Source of the DNA: Roseivirga echinicomitans
GTDB lineage: Bacteria > Bacteroidota > Bacteroidia > Cytophagales > Cyclobacteriaceae
Length of the DNA: 64,000 bases
Direction: 5' to 3'
Assembly (NCBI RefSeq): GCF_001592935.1
Contig: NZ_LRDB01000001.1
Span: 682,001 to 746,000 of the forward strand
Shown here: piece after piece, positions 6,885 through 56,693 of the stretch
Position numbering within the stretch: position 1 is the stretch's first letter
How the letters are laid out: each line of letters starts with the position of its first letter
The notes under the pieces: generated by a model
Databases searched by the model: none
Told to the model about the DNA's origin: nothing
The model's input: only the letters and a program-made list of their open reading frames with translations
Translations under genes and position numbers: made by a program

Positions 6885-8420
<1,536 letters not shown>

Positions 8421-8440
8421 CTATAATATTAGCGACTATT

Positions 8441-8463
8441 GAGCGGAAAGCCTAGAGCGGAAA
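8441..8463. repeat. Tandem 9-bp direct repeat between glpK and dgt
   Basis: GAGCGGAAA (8441-8449) recurs at 8455-8463 with a 5-base spacer GCCTA, a 14-bp period. It lies about 66-88 bases upstream of the glpK start and upstream of the candidate dgt promoter. It could be a regulator binding site; this is inferred from position only. The rest of the gap shows no gene. Confidence 0.5.
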
Positions 8464-8513
8464 ATCAATTCTATTATTTGAATGGAATGAACTTTTATTG
8501 CTGCTTCTGACTG

Positions 8514-8521
8514 TATATTTG
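8514..8521 (+). promoter_or_regulatory. Candidate -7 element of the dGTPase gene
   Basis: TATATTTG matches the Bacteroidota -7 consensus TAnnTTTG exactly and would give a leader of about 45-50 bases before the ATG at 8576. I found no convincing -33 TTG at the usual distance. Confidence 0.35.
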
Positions 8522-8575
8522 ACTCAAGTCTTTTTTACCTTTCCTGTTAAACCCTCAATACTTAGCTTTACCGCG

Positions 8576-9892
8576 ATGAATTGGTTACAACTTCTTTCTT
8601 TAGATACTCCTGATGTTCAGCAAAACCAGACGAGAACGGTTTTCGATCGTGATTTTGATCGGATTATCTTTTCTCATCCGTTCCGGAAATTGCAGGATAA
8701 AACGCAGGTACACCCCTTGCCAGAGCAGGATTTTGTACACACCCGATTGACGCACAGCTTGGAAGTGTCTAGCGTGGGCCGCTCTTTAGGAAGATTGGTG
8801 GGCAGTAAGCTCATAGAGAAGTACGACTTTCTTCAGCATAAAGTAAGTGCACATGATTTTGGCGCCATTGTGGCTGCTGCTTCTTTAGCGCATGACATTG
8901 GAAATCCGCCTTTTGGACATTCAGGTGAATCTTCCATTTCAGATTATTTTAAAAATGCGGAAGCGGAATTAAAGCCAGAAGTAAATGATGCCGAATGGTC
9001 TGACTTGATCAATTTTGAAGGAAATGCACAAGGGTTTAGACTCCTGAACCGACCGGGTTATCAGGGATTAAAATTGTCTTCAGCAACTTTAGCTGCCTTT
9101 ACAAAATACCCGCGCCCCTCATTGGTAGAAAAGCAAGAAAAGGCAAGAAGAAGCCAGAAGAAATTTGGCTTTTACGATACAGAAAGAACCGTTTTTCAAG
9201 CCTTAGGAAAAGAACTTGGCCTTGAAGTTTTAGGAACGGATCAGTTTTGTCGTCATCCGCTGGCATTTTTAGTGGAGGCTGCCGATGACATTTGCTACCA
9301 TATTATAGATTTAGAAGACGGCTGTAATTTGGGCTTGGTCACTTATGAGCAAACGGTCGAATTACTTGCCAATGTCATTGGCGATAAATTTCAACCCGAA
9401 AAATTAGAGGCCATTCATAGTCTGAAGGAGCGAATTGGAGTGCTTCGTGCCTTGGCAATTGGTCAGCTGATTCAGGAATGCGGTGATTTATTTATGGAAC
9501 ACGAAGAAAAGCTTTTGACCGCAGAATTCGATATTTCTTTGGCCGATGAAATTCCTTCAAAAGATGCCATGGCCGAAATCATAAACGTTTCGGTTGCAAA
9601 AATCTACCGCAGTCGTGGGGTAGTTGAAACGGAAGCCGCAGGTTATCGCGTGTTGAATGGACTGCTAGAAGTGCTGGTGCCTGCAACTTTGGCGGGCTTT
9701 AAAAAGAACCTTTCTGCAAAAGATAAAACGTACTTTAGGTTATTGCCCACCGAAACCCAAGCTGAGGTGAAAGAAGCTCCTTCAGCATATTTAGCCTTAA
9801 GGGCCGTGCTCGATTATGTGGCTGGAATGACCGACTCTAACGCCTTGAATTTGTACCGAAAAATTATGGGCATTTCCCTACCGGGCCGATAG
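8576..9892 (+). CDS. dgt: dGTP triphosphohydrolase (HD-domain dNTPase)
   Basis: Hydrolyses dGTP (possibly other dNTPs) to the deoxynucleoside and tripolyphosphate, controlling nucleotide pools. HD-superfamily metal ligands are visible: His60 in THSLEV, His106-Asp107 in LAHDIGNPPFGH, and an Asp in AADDICYHIIDLED. The N-terminal DFDRIIFSHPFRKLQDKTQV is the family signature. The frame extends upstream to a TTG at 8498, but the ATG at 8576 (MNWLQLL, 438 residues) aligns with the usual family start and is preferred. Substrate range cannot be read from sequence. Confidence 0.93.
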   Translation: MNWLQLLSLDTPDVQQNQTRTVFDRDFDRIIFSHPFRKLQDKTQVHPLPEQDFVHTRLTHSLEVSSVGRSLGRLVGSKLIEKYDFLQHKVSAHDFGAIVAAASLAHDIGNPPFGHSGESSISDYFKNAEAELKPEVNDAEWSDLINFEGNAQGFRLLNRPGYQGLKLSSATLAAFTKYPRPSLVEKQEKARRSQKKFGFYDTERTVFQALGKELGLEVLGTDQFCRHPLAFLVEAADDICYHIIDLEDGCNLGLVTYEQTVELLANVIGDKFQPEKLEAIHSLKERIGVLRALAIGQLIQECGDLFMEHEEKLLTAEFDISLADEIPSKDAMAEIINVSVAKIYRSRGVVETEAAGYRVLNGLLEVLVPATLAGFKKNLSAKDKTYFRLLPTETQAEVKEAPSAYLALRAVLDYVAGMTDSNALNLYRKIMGISLPGR

Positions 9893-43468: not shown

Positions 43469-44506
43469 ATGATGAGACTACCAAAGATGAATACTTCCAA
43501 AATACTGATGATTAGCCTCTTAATGGCTCTTTTTAGTGTTTCAGGTTTAAATAATTTGAGAGCCTCTAGCGATAGCGATGGAGAGGAGAAAGCGGCAGGT
43601 GGCACTGATTTTATCATGCACCACATTACTGACGCCCACGAATGGCATTTAATTACCTTAGGTCATACCCACGTTACCATTCCTCTACCCGTAATTATTT
43701 ATGATTACGAAGAGGGTATCAAAGTTCACATGTCATCTGCCTTTGTGGATGCAGATCACAATCCAATTGAAGTAGATGGTTACATGCTAGAGCACGGAAA
43801 GCTTCACTCTACCAACCAAGCCGAATTCATGGATTTATCGATTACCAAAAACGTAGCATCACTTATTATAAGTATTGTTGTTCTATCGTTGGTTTTCATT
43901 ACCGTAGCAAAGCGCTACAAAAAAGGTGTTTCAGCGCCAAAAGGTATTCAGTCGTTTTTTGAGCCTATCATCGTTTTCGTAAGAGACGATATCGCTAAAA
44001 CTAATATTGGTCATAAATATGAGCGCTTTATGCCTTATTTATTGACCCTATTTTTCTTCATTCTTTTCAACAACTTATTGGGCTTAACGCCAGGTGCAGC
44101 TAACCTTACGGGTAATATTGCTGTCACCATGACTTTGGCCTTGATCACATTCATCATTACCAATGTGAATGGAAGAAAAGCTTATTGGATGCACATTTTG
44201 TGGACACCAGGCGTTCCGCTTCCTGTTCGCCCAGTAATCCTTATTGTAGAAATTATCGGAATTTTCACTAAGCCTATTTCATTGATGCTTCGTTTGTTTG
44301 CTAGTATTACAGCTGGTCACATCGTTGTGTTGAGTATTGTAGGTTTGGGCTTTATACTTCAAAGTGTTGCAGTTGGTGTGGTGGGAACACTATTCTCTAC
44401 TGTCATTTTGATCATTGAAATTGTAGTTGCCTTAATTCAGGCCTACGTGTTTACCTTGTTCTCATCTATGTACATCGGCCAAGCCGTTGATGATGGACAT
44501 CATTAA
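43469..44506 (+). CDS. atpB: ATP synthase F0 subunit a
   Basis: Proton channel half of F0. The conserved helix with the essential Arg is MLRLFASITAGH, and FILFNNLLGLTPG marks the first core helices. At 345 residues it is longer than E. coli subunit a because of an N-terminal signal-like helix and an extracytoplasmic, His-rich segment of about 100 residues (FIMHHITDAHEWHL, GHTHVTIPLPV), normal for Bacteroidota. The start at 43469 has two adjacent Met codons; the second would serve equally. Confidence 0.96.
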   Translation: MMRLPKMNTSKILMISLLMALFSVSGLNNLRASSDSDGEEKAAGGTDFIMHHITDAHEWHLITLGHTHVTIPLPVIIYDYEEGIKVHMSSAFVDADHNPIEVDGYMLEHGKLHSTNQAEFMDLSITKNVASLIISIVVLSLVFITVAKRYKKGVSAPKGIQSFFEPIIVFVRDDIAKTNIGHKYERFMPYLLTLFFFILFNNLLGLTPGAANLTGNIAVTMTLALITFIITNVNGRKAYWMHILWTPGVPLPVRPVILIVEIIGIFTKPISLMLRLFASITAGHIVVLSIVGLGFILQSVAVGVVGTLFSTVILIIEIVVALIQAYVFTLFSSMYIGQAVDDGHH

Positions 44507-44541
44507 TTAGAATCTTTGTTTCATATATTAATAGACAAATT

Positions 44542-44802
44542 ATGTTCGCTATTTTATTAACTGCTGGTTATGCCCTTATGGGAGCTGGTATTGGTGCTGG
44601 TCTTGTTGCAATAGGCGCAGGTCTTGGTATTGGAAAAATTGGTGCTTCTGCTATGGAAGGTATGGCTAGACAACCTGAAGCTGCTGGTAAATTGCAGTCA
44701 GGGATGTTGATCATCGCTGCCCTTATTGAAGTAATCGCCTTGTTTGGTGTAGTAGTGTGTTTCTTGTTGGCTAACAACGCTGATATCACTGGTGCTCTTT
44801 AA
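44542..44802 (+). CDS. atpE: ATP synthase F0 subunit c
   Basis: An 86-residue hairpin of two helices; the ring of c subunits turns with proton flow. Helix 1 is Gly-rich (GAGIGAGLVAIGAGLGIG), the loop has ARQPEA, and the carboxylate is the Glu of ALIEVIALFG in helix 2. The residue after that Glu is Val, not Ser/Thr, and no sodium-site Gln is seen in helix 1, so a proton-type ring is expected. Confidence 0.97.
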   Translation: MFAILLTAGYALMGAGIGAGLVAIGAGLGIGKIGASAMEGMARQPEAAGKLQSGMLIIAALIEVIALFGVVVCFLLANNADITGAL

Positions 44803-44825
44803 TTTAGGTAATTGAATTAATGAAT

Positions 44826-44853
44826 TCAGGCTTGTGCGTTAGGCACAGCCTGA
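44826..44853 (+). promoter_or_regulatory. Strong hairpin between atpE and atpF
   Basis: CAGGCTTGTGC (44827-44837), loop GTTAG, GCACAGCCTG (44843-44852): a 10-bp stem with one bulged T, plus a closing T-A pair. It lies between the atpE stop and the atpF start and is followed by T-rich AGTTTAATTTTAAC. It could stabilise the atpE end of the mRNA or attenuate transcription, raising c over b. Function inferred. Confidence 0.6.
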
Positions 44854-44876
44854 GTTTAATTTTAACAAAAAGCGAT

Positions 44877-45371
44877 ATGGATTTATTACTACCAGATTCA
44901 GGATTATTAATCTACCAATTGGTAGGCTTTGTCATTCTATTATTTGTTTTGGGCAAATTTGCTTGGAAACCAATTTTAGCTGGCTTAAAAGAAAGAGAAG
45001 AAACTATCGAGAGCGCATTACTTGCTGCTGAACAAGCAAAAAATGAAATGCAGGCGCTTCAGGCAGATAATGAAAAACTATTAAAAGAGGCAAGAGCTGA
45101 AAGAGATAGTATTTTAAAAGAAGCTCTTACTGTGGCATCTACGATTAAAGAAGAAGCCAAAACAGAAACTTCTAAGATCACTGCTAGAATGATTGAAGAT
45201 GCTAAAGCAGTAATCGAAAATGAGAAAAAAGCGGCTTTAACCGATGTGAAGGTTTTAGTAGCTCGTCTTTCTCTAGAGATAACAGAAAAGCTGTTAAGAA
45301 AAGAATTGGCCGATCAGAGTGCTCAAAAAGAGCTCATCGATGGCCTTGTAAAAGATTTGAACCTTAATTAG
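44877..45371 (+). CDS. atpF: ATP synthase F0 subunit b
   Basis: Peripheral stalk of the ATP synthase: an N-terminal membrane helix (LLIYQLVGFVILLFVLGKFAW) followed by a long charged helix (residues about 40-155) that dimerises and binds delta. Length 164. The frame can be read from an ATG at 44820, but that would place the intercistronic hairpin in coding sequence and spoil the membrane N-terminus; ATG 44877 (MDLLLPDSG) is preferred. Confidence 0.95.
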   Translation: MDLLLPDSGLLIYQLVGFVILLFVLGKFAWKPILAGLKEREETIESALLAAEQAKNEMQALQADNEKLLKEARAERDSILKEALTVASTIKEEAKTETSKITARMIEDAKAVIENEKKAALTDVKVLVARLSLEITEKLLRKELADQSAQKELIDGLVKDLNLN

Positions 45372-45377
45372 GTATAA

Positions 45378-45935
45378 ATGTCTGTATACAGAATTGCTTC
45401 CCGTTATGCCAAATCACTGCTTGAACTAGCAGATGAGAAAGGTATGTTGGAAGACGTGAACAAAGACATGCTGCTATTTTCTCAAATGATTGAGGAAAAC
45501 AGGGACTTTTTACTTTTGTTAAAAAGCCCGGTAGTGCCGCATGACAAGAAATTGACCATACTCAACCAAGTATTTGAAGGTAAAGTGAACAGCCTTACTT
45601 TGAGTATATTCAAAATTCTTGCAAAGAAACATCGTGAACAATATCTTCCTGCAATTGCAACAGAGTTCCACCATCAGTACAACGTTAAAAAAGGAATAGC
45701 AGAGGCTACGGTCACTACTACCTTCCCTATTGACGCTGGTTTGAGAGCAGAATTTGAGGCAGTAGTAACGAAGATTTCTGGCAAAAAAGTAGAACTGACT
45801 GAAAAGGTAGAGAAAGACCTTATTGGTGGGTTTATTTTGAAAGTTGGAGACCGTCAAATTGACGATTCAATCAATTCTAGATTGAAAGCATTGAAATTAG
45901 AATTTAGCAAAAACCCTTACGTAAAGGAGTTTTAA
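45378..45935 (+). CDS. atpH: ATP synthase F1 subunit delta
   Basis: Joins the b stalk to the top of F1. The 185-residue protein shows the OSCP/delta pattern: YRIASRYAKSLLELA at the N-terminus and DLIGGFILKVGDRQIDDSI near the C-terminus. It begins 6 bases after atpF. Confidence 0.96.
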   Translation: MSVYRIASRYAKSLLELADEKGMLEDVNKDMLLFSQMIEENRDFLLLLKSPVVPHDKKLTILNQVFEGKVNSLTLSIFKILAKKHREQYLPAIATEFHHQYNVKKGIAEATVTTTFPIDAGLRAEFEAVVTKISGKKVELTEKVEKDLIGGFILKVGDRQIDDSINSRLKALKLEFSKNPYVKEF

Positions 45936-45962
45936 ATAATTAACACATAACTGTATCATAAC

Positions 45963-47537
45963 ATGGCAGATGTAAGACCTGATGAGGTTTCAGCAATTTT
46001 AAGAGAGCAACTCTCTAACTTTAAATCAGAAGCTGAATTAGAAGAAGTAGGTACTGTATTGCAAGTAGGTGATGGTGTAGCCAGAATCTATGGCTTGTCT
46101 AAAGCGCAATCAGGAGAACTTCTTGAATTTGAAAACGGACTGAAGGCCCTAGTATTGAACCTTGAAGAGGACAATGTAGGAGCTGTATTACTTGGTGAAT
46201 CAGCTGAAATCAAAGAAGGCGATACTGTTAAAAGAACAGGTAAGATCGCATCCATCAATGTAGGTGAAGGAATGGTTGGCCGTGTGGTTGACACCCTGGG
46301 TACTCCAATTGATGGTAAAGGACCTATTTCTGGCGAAACGTTTGAAATGCCATTGGAGAGAAAAGCTCCTGGGGTAATCTACAGACAGCCAGTAACAGAA
46401 CCTCTTCAAACAGGTATCAAAGCGATTGACGCAATGATTCCAATCGGAAGAGGCCAAAGAGAGTTAGTAATTGGTGACCGTCAGACAGGTAAAACTGCTG
46501 TAGTTATCGATACTATTCTTAACCAAAGAGAATTCTACGAAAAAGGAGAGCCTGTATTTTGTATCTATGTTGCCATAGGTCAAAAGGCATCTACTGTAGC
46601 AGGAGTAGTAGCAGCCCTTGAAAAAGGTGGTGCAATGGATTACACTGTTGTGGTATTGGCCGGTGCTTCTGATCCTGCTCCAATGCAGTTCTTCTCGCCA
46701 ATGGCGGGTGCTGCTATCGGTGAGTACTTCAGAGATACAGGAAGACCAGCTTTGGTAATTTATGATGATTTGTCTAAGCAAGCAGTAGCCTATCGTGAAG
46801 TTTCTCTTCTTTTGAGAAGACCTCCAGGACGTGAAGCTTATCCAGGTGACGTATTCTATTTGCACTCTAGACTTCTGGAAAGAGCTGCAAAAATTAACGA
46901 TAACGATGATATTGCACAGGCAATGAACGACCTTCCTCCTTCTTTAGTAGGGAAAGTAAAAGGTGGTGGTTCTTTAACAGCCCTTCCAATTATCGAAACT
47001 CAAGCAGGTGACGTTTCTGCTTATATTCCAACCAACGTAATTTCAATTACAGACGGACAGATTTTCTTGGAAACTAACCTTTTCAACTCTGGTGTACGTC
47101 CTGCAATTAACGTAGGTATCTCTGTATCAAGAGTAGGAGGTAACGCTCAAATCAAATCAATGAAGAAAGTTTCTGGAACCTTGAAGCTTGACCAAGCTCA
47201 GTTCCGTGAATTGGAAGCTTTTGCAAAGTTCGGTTCTGATTTGGATGCATCTACTAAACTTACCATTGATAGAGGTAGAAGAAACCAAGAAATTCTTAAG
47301 CAAGCGCAGTTCTCTCCATCACCAGTAGAAGAGCAAGTGGCAATTATCTATGCTTCTGTAAAAGGTCTTTTAGATAAAGTGCCAGTTGAAAAAGTGAGAG
47401 AGTTTGAGAAGGAATTCTTAACAATCATGAGAACTTCTGAAAGAGCAGCACTCGATTTATTGAAAGCAGGTAAGCTAGACGAAGCTGCTACTTCAGCAAT
47501 CGAAAAGACTGTAAAAGACTTAGCAAGTAGGTATTAA
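45963..47537 (+). CDS. atpA: ATP synthase F1 subunit alpha
   Basis: Non-catalytic nucleotide-binding subunit of F1, 524 residues. P-loop GDRQTGKT (about residues 170-177), the alpha-specific [10 protein letters not shown] segment, and [30 protein letters not shown], here quoted only as its two halves ([28 protein letters not shown]). Starts 27 bases after atpH. Confidence 0.98.
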
Positions 47538-47562
47538 TTTCATTAAGCCTAAATCGTAATAG

Positions 47563-48438
47563 ATGGCGAATTTAAAGGAAGTAAAGGAAAGAATTAAGTC
47601 GGTATCTTCTACTCAGCAGATCACCAGGGCCATGAAAATGGTTGCTGCTGCCAAGTTGAGAAGAGCTCAGGATAAGATCATTCAATTGAGACCTTATTCA
47701 GAGAAACTATCGGCCATTCTTGCCAATGTATCTGCTGGTAACAGCGATGAGTCCATGACAACTTACGCGCAAGAGCGTGAAGTTAAAAATGTACTTATCG
47801 TTCCTGTGACCTCTGATAGAGGACTTTGTGGAGCATTCAACTCAAATATCAACAAAGCATTAAATGTAGTAGTAAAAGCCCATGAGGGTGCGACTATTCA
47901 CGTGATGCCAATTGGTAAAAAAGCGTTCGATATGTCCAAAAAGCAGAAATTCACTAATGTGACTGCTTATTGGGATATGTTCTCTAAGCTGAGCTTTGAA
48001 ACCGCTCGTGAGGCAGCTGAATTTGCGATGAATGGTTATGAGGAGGGTAGATACGACAAAGTTGTATTGATCTACAACGAGTTCAAAAACGTAGCAACTC
48101 AAATCATTAGAAGCGAGCAATTGCTTCCAATCGTTCAGACAGAGCAAGACAGTGCAGCTTCTACTTCAGGTACTGACTATATTTTTGAGCCTTCAAAGGA
48201 TTTTATCGTTGAAGACTTGATTCCGAAATCGTTGAAAATTCAGTTTTACAAGGCCATATTAGACTCTAATGCTTCTGAGCATGGCGCTCGAATGACGGCC
48301 ATGGGCAAAGCAACAGATAACGCTGGTGACTTGTTGAAAGAACTGAAATTGATGTACAACAGAACACGTCAGGCAGCCATTACCAAAGAGATCCTAGAGA
48401 TTGTTGGTGGAGCAGAAGCTTTAGCTGCAGATAAATAG
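47563..48438 (+). CDS. atpG: ATP synthase F1 subunit gamma
   Basis: Central rotating shaft; 291 residues. N-terminal ERIKSVSSTQQITRAMKMVA, LCGAFNSNI and the C-terminal SEHGARMTAMGKATDNA and RTRQAAITKEILEIVGGAEA are characteristic (each quoted in part). It is the last gene here: atpD (beta) and atpC (epsilon) do not follow and must lie elsewhere, as is common in Bacteroidota. Confidence 0.97.
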   Translation: MANLKEVKERIKSVSSTQQITRAMKMVAAAKLRRAQDKIIQLRPYSEKLSAILANVSAGNSDESMTTYAQEREVKNVLIVPVTSDRGLCGAFNSNINKALNVVVKAHEGATIHVMPIGKKAFDMSKKQKFTNVTAYWDMFSKLSFETAREAAEFAMNGYEEGRYDKVVLIYNEFKNVATQIIRSEQLLPIVQTEQDSAASTSGTDYIFEPSKDFIVEDLIPKSLKIQFYKAILDSNASEHGARMTAMGKATDNAGDLLKELKLMYNRTRQAAITKEILEIVGGAEALAADK

Positions 48439-48461: not shown

Positions 48462-48493
48462 AAAGCCCTTTTGAGAAATCAGAGGGCTTTTTT
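48462..48493 (+). terminator. Terminator of the atp operon
   Basis: AAAGCCC (48462-48468) pairs with GGGCTTT (48484-48490) across a 15-base loop, followed by further T residues. It starts 23 bases after the atpG stop, confirming that atpD/atpC are not co-transcribed. Confidence 0.8.
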
Positions 48494-48494
48494 G

Positions 48495-48527
48495 TTTGCT
48501 TCTGGTTCGTAACTTTCCATACATTTG
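48495..48527 (+). promoter_or_regulatory. Putative promoter of the UbiA-like/methyltransferase pair
   Basis: TTTG (48495-48498), a 21-base spacer and TACATTTG (48520-48527), an exact -7 match. It lies directly after the atp terminator and 10 bases before the ATG at 48538. Confidence 0.5.
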
Positions 48528-48537
48528 ATCCATTGCT

Positions 48538-49377
48538 ATGAGAAAGCTTTTGATCCTTATTCAGAACCTTAGCCTTGACGTTACGGCAGGGGCTATAATT
48601 TGTAGCCTGTATATAGCCAGATTGTTCGGTGTTACCCTCGAAAACTCGATGCTCATCGGTTTGGGTGTAGCTATCTGGCTCATCTATACCATAGATCATC
48701 TTTTTGATGCTAAGAAGGGGAGTGGAAACTCAACTAACCAGCGCCATACTTTTCACCAGAAATACTTTAGGCCAATTGCCTTTGTTGCGTTGATCGTTTT
48801 TCTCATTGGAGTATTTAATCTGTACTATTTGCCTTGGGTTACTACCAAGCTAGGCTTAATACTGGCGCTATTGGTTTTGATTTACATTGGCTCTTTACAC
48901 CTACTTAAGCTCAGCAAGACATGGCATAAGGAATTGTTAGCCGCCATAATCTACAGCTTTGGAATTTTCGTTGCCCCCCTTAGCTTATTGGAACACTGGG
49001 ATGTTTTCGTGTTCTATGTTTTCGTGGTGTTTTTTCTCATTGTCATTACCAACCTACTTATATTCCCTATGTTCGAACATGAGAATGATAAAAATGGCGA
49101 TAATCAATCTATCGTGACGCTCTACGGGCAAAGGTTTGTTAGAAAAATGGCTACCGTTATTCTGGCTAATAATGTGTTGTTGATCGTTTGCGGAATGGTT
49201 TACCTCAACCCTGTTATGACTGGAGTTCGTTGGTTAAGCTCTGAGTATATTTTGTTTATGATGACTTTGGCTTTGGCTGTGCTTCTAATGTTCCCAAGCT
49301 TTTTTCAAGCTAAAGATCGTTACAGGCTGGTGGGAGATGGTATTTTCTTTTTCCCTTTGATTTACCTTTTGCTGTGA
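48538..49377 (+). CDS. UbiA-like integral membrane protein (prenyltransferase superfamily)
   Basis: A 279-residue protein with about eight or nine membrane helices. Two Asp-containing loops sit where UbiA enzymes bind Mg-prenyl diphosphate: IDHLFDAKK (Asp53, Asp57) and DKNGD (Asp184, Asp188). The first is shorter than the usual NDxxDxxxD, so activity and substrate are uncertain. The segment KELLAAIIYSFGIFVAP recalls UbiA helix 5. It overlaps the methyltransferase gene by 4 bases (GTGA), implying translational coupling. It could prenylate a small aromatic or lipid; it may instead be a divergent membrane protein without that chemistry. Confidence 0.65.
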   Translation: MRKLLILIQNLSLDVTAGAIICSLYIARLFGVTLENSMLIGLGVAIWLIYTIDHLFDAKKGSGNSTNQRHTFHQKYFRPIAFVALIVFLIGVFNLYYLPWVTTKLGLILALLVLIYIGSLHLLKLSKTWHKELLAAIIYSFGIFVAPLSLLEHWDVFVFYVFVVFFLIVITNLLIFPMFEHENDKNGDNQSIVTLYGQRFVRKMATVILANNVLLIVCGMVYLNPVMTGVRWLSSEYILFMMTLALAVLLMFPSFFQAKDRYRLVGDGIFFFPLIYLLL

Positions 49378-49997
49378 AGAACAATTTCAACCTTATCGCC
49401 CCAGTATATGATGGCTTGGTCAAAGTGATTTTTGGGTCAAAGCTGAAACAGATTCAGGCTCAATTTCTACCCCTAATTCCTGAGAATGCCGGTGTTTTGA
49501 TCATGGGCGGAGGTACTGGATGGATTATCAACGAACTGTTCAATACGGGCTTTAAAGGAAGGCTTACTTATGTAGAGGCCTCTGAAAAAATGATTTTCCT
49601 ATCCAAGAGGAACTGTGAATTCAGTGACTCAATAGACTTTATACATGGCGAAGAAAGTGATCTTCCTGTTGATAGAAAGTATGATGTGATCATCACCAAT
49701 TTCTTTCTGGATGTATTTTCCAAAACAAGATTGGACCAAGTAATAACAATCCTTTCTGAAAAACTCAATGAGGGAGGAGGGTTGTGGATCTGCTCAGATT
49801 TTTACGATACGGGTAAAACGAGCCATCGTTTTTTACTCTGGCTTATGCTCTCCTTTTTTCGAATTACTACACAACTAGAGTCCAAGCAACTTATCGATTT
49901 TCATCCTAAGCTTGAAAAGGAGGGCTATTTACGAAAACAGCATTTTCAAATGATGAATGGCCTTGTTTTCTCTTCTATATATACTAACGCACGATAA
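49374..49997 (+). CDS. Class I SAM-dependent methyltransferase
   Basis: A 207-residue Rossmann-fold methyltransferase: LIAPVYDGLVKVIFG at the N-terminus recalls UbiE-like enzymes, motif I is VLIMGGGTGWI, the acidic residue at the end of strand 2 is in TYVEASEKM, and motif IV is YDVIITNFFLD. Its start is GTG 49374, overlapping the UbiA-like stop by 4 bases. With a UbiA-like partner, a prenylated quinone or lipid is a reasonable guess for the substrate, not shown. Its 3' end overlaps the convergent giant gene by 14 bases. Confidence 0.85.
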   Translation: MKNNFNLIAPVYDGLVKVIFGSKLKQIQAQFLPLIPENAGVLIMGGGTGWIINELFNTGFKGRLTYVEASEKMIFLSKRNCEFSDSIDFIHGEESDLPVDRKYDVIITNFFLDVFSKTRLDQVITILSEKLNEGGGLWICSDFYDTGKTSHRFLLWLMLSFFRITTQLESKQLIDFHPKLEKEGYLRKQHFQMMNGLVFSSIYTNAR

Positions 49998-52900
49998 ACT
50001 TAAAGCTTTGTCGCTTGCTAGTGAACTTGTCAGCGATAACGACCATATGGAGTCCTTTACCTAGTCCTGAGGTTTCCAGTTTTATCCTTCCACTTTGAGG
50101 CTTAAGTATTACCGATTGGCTGCTGATCAAGCCCCCTGCGCTTGAGATTATTTGAACAAGCACTTCACTCTCCGCTTCAACACTGTATGCTAAGGTGATT
50201 AGTTCTCCTTGGCTTACAGGGTTAGGGAATACATTGAAGGTTTGAGAGATGATCGCCTTTTCAATAAATATTCTTTTGATTTCCGAAACGGTAGAGGTTC
50301 CATTAAAGTCCGTTTGTCTCAGTCGATAAAAGTTATTACCAGATTTGGGCGCTATGTCCACGAAGAAATAATTATTGACCTCTTCACTATTGCCAGCCCC
50401 CACTAGTGTATGTATACTTTGAAAGTCCTCCATATTTGAACCCCTTTCAATGGTATAATATGCATTGTTGTATTCGGCTGCAGTGCTCCAGTCTAACCTA
50501 ACGTAGTCCTCATTGGTTTTTTGAGCATCGAAAGATAACAGTGTAATCGGCAATGAAGTGGCTTGTAAGGAGCCTAAAGTGAAGTATTGCTTATCATTTA
50601 GGTTGACGGCAAAGGTCACCGTTTTGTTGGTCGCATTAATTGATGTTGGGGATACTAAAGTAACACCCGAAGTAAAGTTGCCATCGCTATCAAGCATTAA
50701 CCTCACCTGATTCAGGTTGTTTGTACCAATACCAGTAGGTCCTGTTACTGCTGCTAAATCGAATGTTAAGTTCACGGTTCCTACCGTTCCTGTTTCTTGA
50801 ACATACCATTCTCTGAATAATCTACCGCTCACTTGAGAAGAATTGTATTCAGTGTTTCCGTCTGCCTTTGTGCCTTCTTTTGCTACATTGTTATTTCCCC
50901 AAATCAAGAATGAGTTATCTGCAGAGAAAGCACCTGCCATTTCCATGGTCACTATAGCATCATCATTTTCACTTTTTGATTTCCATTGCTGAAAACATGA
51001 GGCATCATCACGACCAATTCCAGCAATGTCATTATTGTAAACAGATTGCTCTGACCAATCCCAAGTAATGGTTCCGGCAGAAGACAAATAATCTTCAGAA
51101 GCTGTACCTCCAGCATTTCTTGTGATTCCGTATTTGATCGCCAAATAGGACTCTACTTTTTGTTTTTCGTTCTCCGTTAGGTCATCAGAGAACACTAATA
51201 CTTCAGCAATTCTACCGTTGAATTGCGAGGCCACATTTGGGTCATCATGGTTTCCAACTCCGAATGAGCCTGGACCGGTTAATGAAGTGTTGGTAGAGGC
51301 TGAAGACCCCACAATGAGCGAATTTATGTAAAGCTGAATAGCGCTTGCAGATGTAGATTTTATTCTTGTAGCGGTTGCGATAAATGGTTCAAAGTTATTA
51401 TACACTGGCCCAGAAGCACTTCGAACGTTGAGGGTTGAGTTAGCTGAAGCATTTACGTGCACTCTTCCTTCAGAAATTCCCAGCCCATAATCATTATTAC
51501 CCCCAGAATCACCACCTCCGATAATAGCAGGAGCATCTTCAAAATTGGTAGTAGACCCACCTGCCTGACCTGTTTCAAAAACTGCAATCAATGTGAAATC
51601 TTCTGAAACATTATTCCCCCCAGAGGTTTTCATGAATGAAGCATTTGTAGAATTAGGGTCACTTATACTGATCGCTGGGTTAAAGTTAATCTGATTCGTT
51701 TGATATTTAGGCTCCACCGGTACACCACCACCTAAATTGGTTTCTGAGGCATTTCTGCCAATTGTACTCTGATCTGCCCATGTATTTAAGTCCGTATTAT
51801 TAGTTGTGCTTCCCGTGCCAGCATCTGCTTTTAACCATAAAGCCAAATCTGTTTTTATACCACCAGGTCCGCAAGTTTCACGCGCTGTACCTAAAGTAAA
51901 GTAATTGCCATTGGCAAAATTGACGTTATTAAAGGTGATCACATTTCCATTGAATGTTCCTCCCGAAATGGTTGAACCGCTGGCCATTGTTGCACTAGAG
52001 GATACTATTAATTGGAAGTTTGCAGGATTTGATGAATATCCTAATCCTGTGAGGTCAAAGGAAACAGAGGTGTTTCCAATCGTACCTGATTTGGCTACCC
52101 TCCATTTTCTCGTCATTCTTTGAGTTACGTTACCTGGCAAATCACTTGCACTCGCTCCTGACTGCAATGCGCTACCTGCATCTCTACCCCATACTAAGAA
52201 CGAATTGTCTACAGAGAAACTATTAGGGTTCGAAACGTTGTCTGTATAAATCCCACCATTCCCAATGGTTACAATGGAACCCGAATTCGCACTTTTAGAT
52301 TGTTTTTGTTGTAAGCAAGAGCCATCGTCTCTGCCTATTCCAGCAATGTCTTTATTATAAGTTGAGTTAGTCGTGGCATTCCAAATAACACTACTCGCAG
52401 AGTTTACATAGTTTTGAGCCGAATTCTGACTTAGTGTAATTCCGTATTTAATGGCTAAGTAAGACTGTATTCTTGCATGTTCTGCATCAGACGGACGTGC
52501 TGAAAATGAGATTACTTCAGCAATTTGGCCATCAAAATTATCGTTAGTGAAGGTGTTGGCATCTAAGTTTCCACCAATACGATAAGCTACATTGGTAGAA
52601 GTAAGTAAGTTACCATCACTCAAGTTTACTTGGTTGCGACCATTCACAAAAATCTCGGTACTGTTATTTGCTGCATTGTTTTTCACCCCAAACATCATGG
52701 TGGTATTATTGGCAATTGTGCCATAAGCGGCTTGTGATGTCGCTCTTCTATAACGTGTACCTGATCCTCCAATAGCATGAGTAATGATTTCGTCATTAAA
52801 AGCTCCTGTTACACTTCCCAAAGCCAAGCTGCCAAACTGATTTGAAGCGCTTCCTGGCACAGTAAATTCCATTATACTTTCTTGAGCCGAGGCAGAAGTA

Positions 52901-55551
52901 TAGGCAAGATCTGTATTAATGACCATGTAGTAGGCGGCAGAATTAAAGCCTGCTATACCTGACATTTCTTCGGTGTTACTGTCATCAAAATTAAGGGCGG
53001 GATTATAGTTTATAGAATTGCTCTCGTAGTTTGGTTCATCACCCGAAGCAGCCGAAGCGCTGTTGCTACCTGCTTGGTCGGCCCATGTAATTACATTGCT
53101 TCCATTTGTAGTAGAGCTTGGCCCAACATCAGCCTTGAGCCATAAGGTTAGGTTTGTACTTACATCGCCAGGAGCACAATCAATGAAGGCCGTACCGATA
53201 GTGAAATATTCTCCATTGGCTAGATTTACATTGCTAAATGTGAGTGTACTTCCTACTAATACACCCCCTGTAATCACCGTGGCAGAAGAAAAATCACCAT
53301 CTGAGCTATTTCCTGCCACAAGCAAACTGTAGTCAGAGGCTACAGGACTGCCTGAAACGCTTAATTTAGAAACATCAAATGCTATGGAGTTATTTCCAGT
53401 TTCACCTGTTTCGCCCGCACGCCACACTCTCTTTATGCGTTTAGAAATCAAGGGAGGAACGTCCGCAGTTTCTGTATCCGTTACAGCGGTTCCATCATTA
53501 CCCCAAATCAACCACGAATCGTTTGAAGAAAAACTTCCCCCATGGTTGATTGTTACCACGGAATTGTTGTTTTCACTTCTTGATTTTTGTTGCTCAAAAG
53601 CGGAGTTATCATCTCTTCCTATTCCGGCAATGTCCTTATTGTACTCTAAAAATCCACCAATTGAAGCTGCTGAGGTTGTATTAAAAATTACCGAGCCGGC
53701 AGAGTTTGTATAATTGATTGGAGTTGATTGATCTAGCGTAATGCCATATTTGATCGCCAAATAGCTTTCAATCTTATTGCGCTGTATAAGTGGAAAGGCG
53801 CTAGGTTCATTACAATAGATAAGTTCTGAGATTTCTCCGTAAAATGAGTTTCCACTGTTGTTTGAGCCATCATCAAACTTTATATTACCATCAGATCCAC
53901 CAAACTGAATTCCTCCAGTGTGTCGATAGAGTATACCAACGTTTCCGAATGACCCGAAACTCTGTCCGTTGAGATATGTGGTGATTGTACCAGTCCCTGA
54001 TGAATTTCCATTTTCCTCTAATGTCACAATGTACTCAGTATTCATGTTTACTGCAGTACTTACTGTGGTTACGTTTCCGTTGTTATTCCATGGTGCCCCA
54101 GGCCCGTCATTTGGAGTGTTCCATGCTGTAAGGTGGAGGTTACCGTTACGGATATAAATATTTATACCTCGTGAATTCCCTCCTTGTTTGTACAGTACCT
54201 GTCTTGTATTGATGTCACTTGCACTTGTGCGAAATGCTAGGTTAATTCCCTTTTTGGTGTAGGACGTGGCCGTATTGAAACCGTCATTATTTGATATATC
54301 TAGGCTGTTGTTGCCATTCCCAAAATCAGCCGTAGGGTTAAAGTTAATATGGCTTGAAGTACTTCTATACACCACCGTTCCAGTATTTGAGGTGGCGTCA
54401 TTATCACCTATCCACTGGTCTTGCCAGTCGGTTATGGTGCTACCATCTGTGGCAGTAGTAACTCCTACGTTGGCTTTTAACCAAGTAGTTAGGGCTGCTT
54501 TATAACCGCCAGGCCCTACAGCTGGCGAAAGACAATTGTCTGATGAAACAGCCGCGGCTACTCCAGCCACTAAGTCAAGGCCAGAAACAGATGAAAGTGT
54601 GGTGGTCGGAAAAGTACTAATGTCGGTTAAATCAATTCCAGGATTTGATTCATTTGTATCGGAAGCGAAAATTGAATAGCCATAAACAACTTGATTGGCT
54701 GCAACACCCAACTCTGTGAAAGAAACAGCAACGCCCTTAATGGCCTGAGCCGCTTGGTTAGCCATCGTGCCAATATTAAGTAATGGTAAAGGGTTTTGAC
54801 CTACCACCTGCCTTCTTAAAATCAAATAGTTATTGAAGGTTTGTCCTGTTCCGGTCCAATCAGAGGCTTCGATAAGTACAGTTGATGAATATCCATTTGG
54901 ATCACCGTTACTGTCTAACGAAGTAATCGCTGCCACACGAATATTGTCATTACCCCCTCTTTCTAAAACAGGGAAAACAGCATTGTCGGGTTCGCAGGTT
55001 GCAACACCAGTATACCAAATGATATCCACTCGTTCAATCTGAGCCTGTATAGCGTCTCCCGCCAAATCATCTTCGTTTACTAAAATGTTATCATAACCCG
55101 CATTAATATTTCCAATTTGATAAATAAGGTCGGCATCGGATACAGCCCTTGGGTCTAAGTCTAATTGATTAGGAGTAGTGCTTGTATTGATTTGATTTAA
55201 GGTATACCAAATGTTTACGAATTTACTTCCATCGGTTCGCCTTATGGCTAAGGTGTCTGGAGCCAAAAAATTGCTATAAGTATTACCGCCAACAACATAA
55301 CTCGTCACTGTAATGTCATTTCCTGTACCGTTACGCACAGTATAAACCGTACTGTTGTTAAGGCTATTACTCGCGTCAGCGGGAGCGGTTTGATTATATT
55401 GAGAATCTGGGGCAGCTGTAGAGCTTACATTAATGGCAGTAATTGGGGATTGCCCAAAGAGTATTTGGTTTGAGCATACGATCAAACACAAAACAAGAAA
55501 TCTTTTGACCAGTTTTAGTATTAACACGACACGTTTGGTTAAATACAGCAT
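49984..55551 (-). CDS. Giant secreted protein with three LamG-like modules and T9SS sorting domain
   Basis: A 1855-residue exported protein. Signal peptide (residues 1 to about 34, cleaved near LFGQ); an N-terminal beta-rich region (about 35-345); three related modules of about 430-450 residues, each opening with a W(L)KA(N/D).G motif (ALTTWLKANVG about 350, LTLWLKADVG about 805, LALWLKADAG about 1235) and ending with SYLAIKYGIT, DIAGIGRDD and a (Y/F)FT.GTA-type strand; then an Ig/Fn3-like domain (about 1665-1765); and a type A T9SS C-terminal domain opening with VFPNP (about 1775) and ending SFKFIVR. The modules look like concanavalin/LamG-fold carbohydrate-binding units. Probably displayed or released by the T9SS encoded here; ligand unknown. 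Confidence 0.9.
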   Translation of the reverse strand: MLYLTKRVVLILKLVKRFLVLCLIVCSNQILFGQSPITAINVSSTAAPDSQYNQTAPADASNSLNNSTVYTVRNGTGNDITVTSYVVGGNTYSNFLAPDTLAIRRTDGSKFVNIWYTLNQINTSTTPNQLDLDPRAVSDADLIYQIGNINAGYDNILVNEDDLAGDAIQAQIERVDIIWYTGVATCEPDNAVFPVLERGGNDNIRVAAITSLDSNGDPNGYSSTVLIEASDWTGTGQTFNNYLILRRQVVGQNPLPLLNIGTMANQAAQAIKGVAVSFTELGVAANQVVYGYSIFASDTNESNPGIDLTDISTFPTTTLSSVSGLDLVAGVAAAVSSDNCLSPAVGPGGYKAALTTWLKANVGVTTATDGSTITDWQDQWIGDNDATSNTGTVVYRSTSSHINFNPTADFGNGNNSLDISNNDGFNTATSYTKKGINLAFRTSASDINTRQVLYKQGGNSRGINIYIRNGNLHLTAWNTPNDGPGAPWNNNGNVTTVSTAVNMNTEYIVTLEENGNSSGTGTITTYLNGQSFGSFGNVGILYRHTGGIQFGGSDGNIKFDDGSNNSGNSFYGEISELIYCNEPSAFPLIQRNKIESYLAIKYGITLDQSTPINYTNSAGSVIFNTTSAASIGGFLEYNKDIAGIGRDDNSAFEQQKSRSENNNSVVTINHGGSFSSNDSWLIWGNDGTAVTDTETADVPPLISKRIKRVWRAGETGETGNNSIAFDVSKLSVSGSPVASDYSLLVAGNSSDGDFSSATVITGGVLVGSTLTFSNVNLANGEYFTIGTAFIDCAPGDVSTNLTLWLKADVGPSSTTNGSNVITWADQAGSNSASAASGDEPNYESNSINYNPALNFDDSNTEEMSGIAGFNSAAYYMVINTDLAYTSASAQESIMEFTVPGSASNQFGSLALGSVTGAFNDEIITHAIGGSGTRYRRATSQAAYGTIANNTTMMFGVKNNAANNSTEIFVNGRNQVNLSDGNLLTSTNVAYRIGGNLDANTFTNDNFDGQIAEVISFSARPSDAEHARIQSYLAIKYGITLSQNSAQNYVNSASSVIWNATTNSTYNKDIAGIGRDDGSCLQQKQSKSANSGSIVTIGNGGIYTDNVSNPNSFSVDNSFLVWGRDAGSALQSGASASDLPGNVTQRMTRKWRVAKSGTIGNTSVSFDLTGLGYSSNPANFQLIVSSSATMASGSTISGGTFNGNVITFNNVNFANGNYFTLGTARETCGPGGIKTDLALWLKADAGTGSTTNNTDLNTWADQSTIGRNASETNLGGGVPVEPKYQTNQINFNPAISISDPNSTNASFMKTSGGNNVSEDFTLIAVFETGQAGGSTTNFEDAPAIIGGGDSGGNNDYGLGISEGRVHVNASANSTLNVRSASGPVYNNFEPFIATATRIKSTSASAIQLYINSLIVGSSASTNTSLTGPGSFGVGNHDDPNVASQFNGRIAEVLVFSDDLTENEKQKVESYLAIKYGITRNAGGTASEDYLSSAGTITWDWSEQSVYNNDIAGIGRDDASCFQQWKSKSENDDAIVTMEMAGAFSADNSFLIWGNNNVAKEGTKADGNTEYNSSQVSGRLFREWYVQETGTVGTVNLTFDLAAVTGPTGIGTNNLNQVRLMLDSDGNFTSGVTLVSPTSINATNKTVTFAVNLNDKQYFTLGSLQATSLPITLLSFDAQKTNEDYVRLDWSTAAEYNNAYYTIERGSNMEDFQSIHTLVGAGNSEEVNNYFFVDIAPKSGNNFYRLRQTDFNGTSTVSEIKRIFIEKAIISQTFNVFPNPVSQGELITLAYSVEAESEVLVQIISSAGGLISSQSVILKPQSGRIKLETSGLGKGLHMVVIADKFTSKRQSFKFIVR

Positions 55552-55835: not shown

Positions 55836-56693
55836 ATGTCGATTTCTGCAATGAAAAGCCACTTTTCTGTTTTCAAGTACCTCAAAATGATCAGGGGCCT
55901 AAACCTCTTGATTGTAGCGTTGACACAATACTTCACCGCTATATTTTTGCTTAGAGAAGGGCTTAATTGGGTGTTGTTAAGTGATGAAAAATTCTTTTTG
56001 CTAGTACTCTCTACGGTTATTATTACGAGTGCGGGCTATCTCATTAATGATTATTACGATGTTAAAATAGATTATGTGAACAGACCTAACCGTGTAATTG
56101 TAGGTAAAACCTTAAAAAGAAGACGGATTATTATTGCCCACACTGTTTTGAACTTTATAGGAATAGGTATTGGATTCTATATCTCTCCTATTATTGGTAT
56201 TATTAATTTTGTAGCAGCTTTTCTACTTTGGCTTTATTCCAATCAATTAAAGAGGCTTCCCTTCATCGGGAATTTTACAATTGCCATTCTCACTGGAGTC
56301 ACCTTGTTTTTAGTGGGACAATATTTCCAAGAGCGAGAATATTTGATTTTATGTTATGCGATCTTTGCGGGTTTTATAACGCTTATCAGAGAGATTATTA
56401 AAGATATGGAAGACCTCAAAGGCGATGAAAGGTTTGGCTGTAAAACCCTCCCAATCGTTTTGGGAATTGCCAAAACCAAGAAGATCATTTATGGAATCAT
56501 TTTGGTCTTTTGTATAGTGGTTTTTTTATTGATGAGTACTGTGAACATTGTTTTCCCGATCACTCTTTCAGTTGTTATGATTTTCCTCATCTTTGAGCTT
56601 TTAAAAGCGGATAAGATAAAGGATTACGGTAGACTCAGTACATTTTGTAAAGTTATTATGCTGATTGGTGTGATCAGTATGGTTTGGATATGA
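55836..56693 (+). CDS. UbiA family prenyltransferase
   Basis: A 285-residue membrane enzyme with about eight helices and both canonical Asp-rich motifs: NDYYDVKID (Asn71, Asp72, Asp75, Asp79) and KDMEDLKGD (about 190-199). Transfers a prenyl chain from its diphosphate to an acceptor. In Bacteroidota such genes are often annotated as geranylgeranylglycerol-phosphate geranylgeranyltransferase-like; the acceptor cannot be read here. A near -7 match TACCTTTA (55811-55818) precedes it. Its stop overlaps the purN ATG (ATGA). Confidence 0.88.
   Translation: MSISAMKSHFSVFKYLKMIRGLNLLIVALTQYFTAIFLLREGLNWVLLSDEKFFLLVLSTVIITSAGYLINDYYDVKIDYVNRPNRVIVGKTLKRRRIIIAHTVLNFIGIGIGFYISPIIGIINFVAAFLLWLYSNQLKRLPFIGNFTIAILTGVTLFLVGQYFQEREYLILCYAIFAGFITLIREIIKDMEDLKGDERFGCKTLPIVLGIAKTKKIIYGIILVFCIVVFLLMSTVNIVFPITLSVVMIFLIFELLKADKIKDYGRLSTFCKVIMLIGVISMVWI

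Follow-up and report, generated by a model that had tools for sequence, protein, structure and literature searches.

What might two small overlapping genes, one for a UbiA-like membrane protein with an altered aspartate motif and the other for a methyltransferase, be doing together downstream of the ATP synthase genes of Roseivirga echinicomitans? The pair lies in a stretch of 64,000 nucleotides (the window) on contig C1; the whole genome measures 4.18 Mb. Roseivirga belongs to the Cytophagales, and the pair is found in most genomes of one bacterial family, being absent in the rest. Its likely role, we believe, is in the synthesis or modification of a membrane lipid. More specifically, we favor, with a confidence that falls somewhat short of even, a two-step membrane-lipid pathway in which the UbiA-like enzyme would act first and the methyltransferase second. 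Should this be correct, a membrane isoprenoid overlooked so far would be produced by a common group of environmental bacteria, and a UbiA-type enzyme would break the textbook motif rule.

Layout of the locus

The elements discussed here are the following, in window positions:

47563-48438, forward strand: atpG (ATP synthase gamma), the conserved upstream neighbour of the pair
48467-48486, forward strand: terminator-like hairpin with a T run, between atpG and the pair
48495-48527, forward strand: possible promoter, TTTG-N21-TACATTTG, a pattern match
48538-49377, forward strand: UbiA-like integral membrane protein, 279 aa, ATG start, nine long transmembrane-type helices
49374-49997, forward strand: class I SAM-dependent methyltransferase, 207 aa, GTG start

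The ATP synthase genes, named by eye, occupy positions 43469-48438, 5' of the hairpin and the pair. As the initial annotation had it, the two reading frames of the pair overlap by 4 bases. Two Roseivirga species have the UbiA-like protein at 83-86% identity. Both genes are under purifying selection: comparing the window with two Roseivirga species, dN/dS is approximately 0.10-0.11 for the UbiA-like gene and 0.16-0.18 for the methyltransferase gene. The same annotation credited the pair with a good promoter of its own and a terminator-isolated position, and each of these claims survives in part. Namely, the quoted promoter letters are indeed present at 48495-48527, but the window contains a single match to the pattern where 3.25 would be expected by chance, for which reason we reject the pattern alone as proof of a promoter. 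It ends only 10 bases before the UbiA-like ATG, and its letters are identical in two other Roseivirga species and absent in one further genome (G320). As for the terminators, a terminator-like hairpin does lie after atpG on the upstream side of the pair, but no counterpart turned up in the hairpin scan downstream, between the methyltransferase gene and its neighbour, which lies on the opposite strand and whose end overlaps the methyltransferase by 14 bp. The 1855-aa product of this next gene (49984-55551, reverse strand) looks secreted; besides repeated modules it carries a FPNPVSQGELITL-type tail at its C-terminus, which we take to be a type IX secretion sorting signal.

Fold and conserved residues of the UbiA-like protein

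That the membrane protein is UbiA-like was confirmed at two levels, by a match to Pfam UbiA and by a predicted fold like that of solved UbiA structures. In the HMM searches, Pfam UbiA (PF01040) matches with an E-value of 2.8e-8 and 33.8 bits, just below its cut-off of 34.2, and is matched at E 0.001 by 6 of 16 relatives of the protein. The NCBIfam model NF047439 (LA_0991 family prenyltransferase-like protein) aligns along the whole protein (residues 2-278, E 3.6e-36) and scores 125.3 bits against a curated cut-off of 300, so that both models match below their own cut-offs; the menA models of NCBIfam gave no match up to E 1. The AlphaFold model (pLDDT 86.9, pTM 0.87) has nine long helices and aligns with 4tq4 (AfUbiA) at a Z-score of 18.9 and an rmsd of 3.7 over 263 residues. 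The first Foldseek matches are UbiA-type enzymes, with soluble trans-prenyl synthases coming next in the structure comparison at Z of about 15. Judged by this predicted model, the protein has the UbiA fold, the absence of which the initial annotation had seen as fatal to its proposal. In profile comparisons with the genome's own four UbiA proteins, on the other hand, only the second-motif region aligned, with a probability of 7.9, and the best single comparison, that with MenA, gave 58.7. In other words, the sequence-level link to canonical UbiA is weak, and it is the predicted fold that carries the assignment to the superfamily.

The first aspartate motif is altered, as had been reported: the protein reads DHLFD and lacks NDxxDxxxD. 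The alteration is real, but it is not peculiar to the window gene. Among 80 distinct homologues scoring above 120 bits, drawn from the loci collected, none has NDxxDxxxD and all have a DxxxD of the type Y-x-x-D-[HR]-x-x-D in its place. The second motif is present, with Asp or Glu at position 180 in all 80 and D184 in 77 (E180xxxD184 in the window protein), meaning that the first motif is reduced and the second kept throughout the family. What is more, Y50, D53, D57, R69, K131, S191 and R263 are invariant in 80/80 and H73 is kept in 78/80; in the window protein, these include the DxxxD (D53, D57), R69-H-x-F-H73, K131 and R263. The invariance of these seven residues, along with the acidic second motif, speaks for a working active site.

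How unusual the first motif is depends on the register in which it is read. According to the cited part of PMC9835599, ApUbiA and AfUbiA read DxxxD where MenA has NDxxDxxxD, and DxxxD alone therefore does not place a protein outside the superfamily. If the registers correspond, the unusual feature would be the residue four positions before the first Asp, which is hydrophobic in 80/80 homologues. According to PMC4106721, GPP binding by AfUbiA depends on N68, D72, D198, D202, R22 and K146, N68 being essential, and the MenA equivalents of N68, D72, D198 and D202 matter too. The counterpart of N68 would have been lost in the family if its DxxxD corresponds to D72xxxD76; the MAFFT alignment, for its part, sets D57 opposite the Asn of NDxxDxxxD, and not D53 opposite the second Asp. 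K131, at the start of the fifth long helix, may be equivalent to the diphosphate-binding K146 of AfUbiA. In the fourth helix, a catalytic Tyr like Y139 of AfUbiA is not prominent, position 116 being Tyr in 45/80.

A second, motif-less UbiA-like group

A profile of the methyltransferase exceeded 130 bits in 18 of 395 genomes of the phylum; we chose this threshold ourselves, as we did the 100 bits that define a strong match within the family, and 38 of the 56 genomes matched reached less than 70 bits only and were left out as generic methyltransferases. At seven loci, in the families here labelled f4 and f7, the gene in front of the methyltransferase encodes a membrane protein of some 300 aa, which matches Pfam UbiA in 7/7 and the studied UbiA-like family, by profile comparison, with a probability of 96.8% over 248 columns. 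Both Asp residues of the first motif are lost in this group (7/7), and FDIxDxxxD and the Lys are kept. Searching with these proteins matched 75 of the 395 genomes; the first motif is likewise missing from 20 further relatives whose loci were opened, and these loci yielded no methyltransferase of this type. Each of the 18 genomes with a methyltransferase above 130 bits also encodes a member of one or other UbiA-like group, the two genes standing apart in three f2, two f3 and one f4 genomes. The two groups separate into branches of their own in a 56-sequence tree, with a support of 0.78 for the first and of 0.97 and 0.82 at the splits of the second; the five canonical UbiA sequences in the tree are too few to place either group nearer to anything. 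At nine f7 loci (L176-L184), the motif-less gene stands divergently beside a gcvP-like gene of 949-961 aa, and at several f5 and f8 loci beside an M42-peptidase-like gene (all named by eye).

Is the UbiA-like protein then an enzyme at all? It could instead be a pseudo-enzyme, a lipid-binding scaffold or a transporter whose role would be to hand a membrane lipid over to the methyltransferase, a reading favored by the complete lack of NDxxDxxxD (80/80), by the loss of the first motif in the seven paired proteins and their 20 unpaired relatives, and by a Pfam score below the cut-off. That said, the metal-type acids, Lys131, Arg69 and Arg263 vary little or not at all among the 80 homologues, which exceeds what a scaffold would appear to need, and the UbiA-like gene is kept without a strong methyltransferase in 39 of 196 genomes of the family. 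We consider this alternative unlikely, while regarding it as the most serious one.

Considerably less probable is a UbiA-type terpene cyclase, which would cyclise an isoprenyl diphosphate and leave the terpene to be methylated by its partner. The cited part of PMC9835599 describes fungal UbiA-type terpene synthases with an altered first and an Asp-rich second motif, one of which works with a methyltransferase, and the FDIxDxxxD of the paired group resembles their QDxxDxxxD. However, this resemblance is short, and neither NxxxG/AxxxD, the fungal first motif, nor QDxxDxxxD occurs in the UbiA-like family in the form described there. Furthermore, no terpene genes were recognised by eye in the neighbourhoods opened.

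The methyltransferase and the quinone genes

The partner gene was correctly assigned to the class I SAM methyltransferases: its product matches Methyltransf_25 with 37.3 bits against a cut-off of 27, and its predicted structure has the class I SAM fold (pLDDT 93). It reaches none of the curated NCBIfam cut-offs, scoring 20.3 bits (E 2.8e-4) against the 158.35 of TIGR01934 (UbiE/MenG). The nearest solved chain is 3dtn, with so many near-equal neighbours that no substrate can be read from the structure. Its N-terminus contains FxxIAxxYD, which recalls UbiE when set by eye against the genome's own, and the protein also has GGGTG. Among 49 distinct methyltransferases scoring above 100 bits, Y12, G45, G47, G49, M73, L112, D113 and F143 are invariant; within FxxIAxxYD, Y12 is thus kept in 49/49 and D13 in 43/49. 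PADLOC recognised only the methyltransferase domain of mad2 (51.2 bits), a hit that we took as generic and set aside.

The initial annotation had also held that its proposal would fall if the pair proved to be the only MenA and UbiE of the genome. Both of these are encoded elsewhere, MenA (G000:C22) with 376.6 bits against a cut-off of 346 and UbiE with 268.8 against 158.35, as is heme O synthase (274.9 against 210.3), and the pair is consequently not the genome's MenA/UbiE. The window also holds a second UbiA-superfamily gene (55836-56693, forward strand; NF009513, 309.7 bits, above the cut-off of 288), which has an intact NDYYDVKID and runs into a purN-like gene; a relative of it lies directly 5' of the UbiA-like gene at locus L137 (G443, 7493-9592). 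At another locus of the source genome (L004, G000:C1:398735-402499), a UbiA-family gene is flanked by type III polyketide-synthase-like and FAD-dependent oxidoreductase-like genes (neighbours in these loci named by eye).

One can also imagine that the pair modifies menaquinone itself, by an extra methyl group or a change of the chain. This would suit the ATP synthase operon, which adjoins at 29 of 40 loci opened, the UbiE-like character of the methyltransferase and the presence of MenA and UbiE elsewhere. Nevertheless, the sequences carry no signature of a quinone-specific family, and we know of no unusual menaquinones in Roseivirga, which we also count against this idea; we give it a low probability.

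Distribution and pairing

The two-gene module is conserved far beyond its source genome. Using a 16-row profile, we found the UbiA-like protein in 163 of 196 genomes of the same family, representing 69 of 84 genera, with weak matches (E > 1e-5) in three of the 163 (G522, G534 and G539). The methyltransferase exceeds 100 bits in 124 of the 196, all of which also have the UbiA-like gene; a further 39 encode the UbiA-like protein but no strong methyltransferase, and 33 have neither. Fisher's test gives this one-way dependence (124/124) a p-value of 1e-17, which ignores kinship among genomes that are not independent. A neighbourhood survey, suggested along with the initial annotation, placed the methyltransferase directly 3' on the same strand, at a median gap of 13 bp, in 109 of 150 UbiA-like loci listed; in 6 it is separated by 352-1925 bp, and for 35 the matches listed include none downstream. 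At 29 of the 40 loci opened, atpG lies within 3 kb upstream (17/20 with the methyltransferase, 12/20 without), the gap being -1 to 18 bp in four of them. In two genomes (G505 and G535), the pair has been relocated between rplS-like and carB-like genes, named by eye. Across 60 opened loci, the neighbouring genes revealed no pathway and no neighbour that identifies a substrate.

Outside the family, the UbiA-like protein is rare, accounting for 8 of 14 strong matches among the 395 genomes of the phylum. Namely, the LA_0991 model matches 14 of the 395, none above its curated cut-off, and the same 14 are the only ones to exceed 250 bits with the 16-row profile, 19 weaker genomes all staying below 80 bits. 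At several loci lacking the methyltransferase (L134, L138, L143, L145, L146 and others), an SGNH-hydrolase-like gene, so named by eye (cluster c14, 10 members), often lies on the opposite strand between atpG and the UbiA-like gene.

The notion that this neighbourhood is inherited gene order with no functional link draws on the facts that nearly all close pairs seen fall in one family and that the neighbouring atp genes are conserved too, but it is very improbable, given that the pair stays together at new places (e.g. G505), that distant methyltransferases adjoin another UbiA-like group in two other families, and that the dependence is one-way in 124/124 (p 1e-17, for related genomes that are not independent).

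Proposed function

In the two-step pathway that we favor, the two genes would form one functional unit. The UbiA-like protein would be a membrane-embedded enzyme of the UbiA superfamily, whose DxxxD, [DE]xxxD, Lys131 and Arg69/Arg263 probably bind an isoprenoid diphosphate or a comparable lipid carrying phosphate. The UbiE-type methyltransferase would then methylate the product of this enzyme, or a later form of it, and what results may be a prenyl compound, methylated and soluble in the membrane, that differs from the menaquinone of the separate MenA and UbiE. We infer catalysis, substrate, order of steps and product alike. The UbiA-like protein often occurs without the methyltransferase, but the methyltransferase was not seen without it, which is most simply read as the UbiA-like protein acting first. 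Menaquinone is made by MenA and then UbiE, and by analogy the methyltransferase would, most simply, decorate the UbiA-like product.

Against this pathway we count the related paired group, which keeps its methyltransferase despite having lost the Asp residues of the first motif (7/7). Also unfavorable are the hydrophobic residue in place of N68, if DxxxD corresponds to D72xxxD76, the lack of a prominent catalytic Tyr like Y139, the failure of the methyltransferase to reach any NCBIfam cut-off, and the fact that no neighbour points to a substrate. Given the altered motif, its complete loss in that group and the absence of the Asn, there is an appreciable chance that no prenyl transfer takes place, and this is why our confidence stays below even. 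More doubtful still is a broader proposal, namely that a branch of the UbiA fold found throughout the Bacteroidota, in which the first Asp motif is eroded or missing and the substrate chemistry therefore different, has in several families been wired to a dedicated methyltransferase and might yield an undescribed methylated isoprenoid membrane lipid.

Comparison with known systems

What is already known here is the fold, the type of methyltransferase, and a neighbouring family that NCBI has named without a function. The conserved pairing, the family-wide change of motif and the link to a motif-less branch seem to be new; in open-licence PubMed Central, judged by title and the start of the abstract, we recognised no literature on the UbiA-like/methyltransferase family. 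The LA_0991 family (NF047439) resembles the UbiA-like protein over its full length but at a score far under 300; the name of the model carries no function, and we found no publication on LA_0991 in Leptospira in open-licence PubMed Central.

AfUbiA/ApUbiA, MenA and CtaB (PF01040) are like the UbiA-like protein in fold over 263 residues, and share with it a DxxxD towards the end of helix 2, a [DE]xxxD where helix 6 ends and a Lys at the start of helix 5. Unlike canonical UbiA, the family is without NDxxDxxxD and, in one register, has lost the conserved Asn, and it has an additional near-invariant RHxFH and Arg263. The fungal UbiA-type terpene synthases Tps1A and Fma-TC, as portrayed in the cited part of PMC9835599, have an altered first motif as well, with a methyltransferase in one cluster; they differ in that first motif and in the organisms concerned, the likeness being one of description and not of sequence. 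Finally, UbiE/MenG (TIGR01934) has the SAM fold and an FxxIAxxYD-like start in common with our methyltransferase, which nevertheless scores far below the cut-off of that model.
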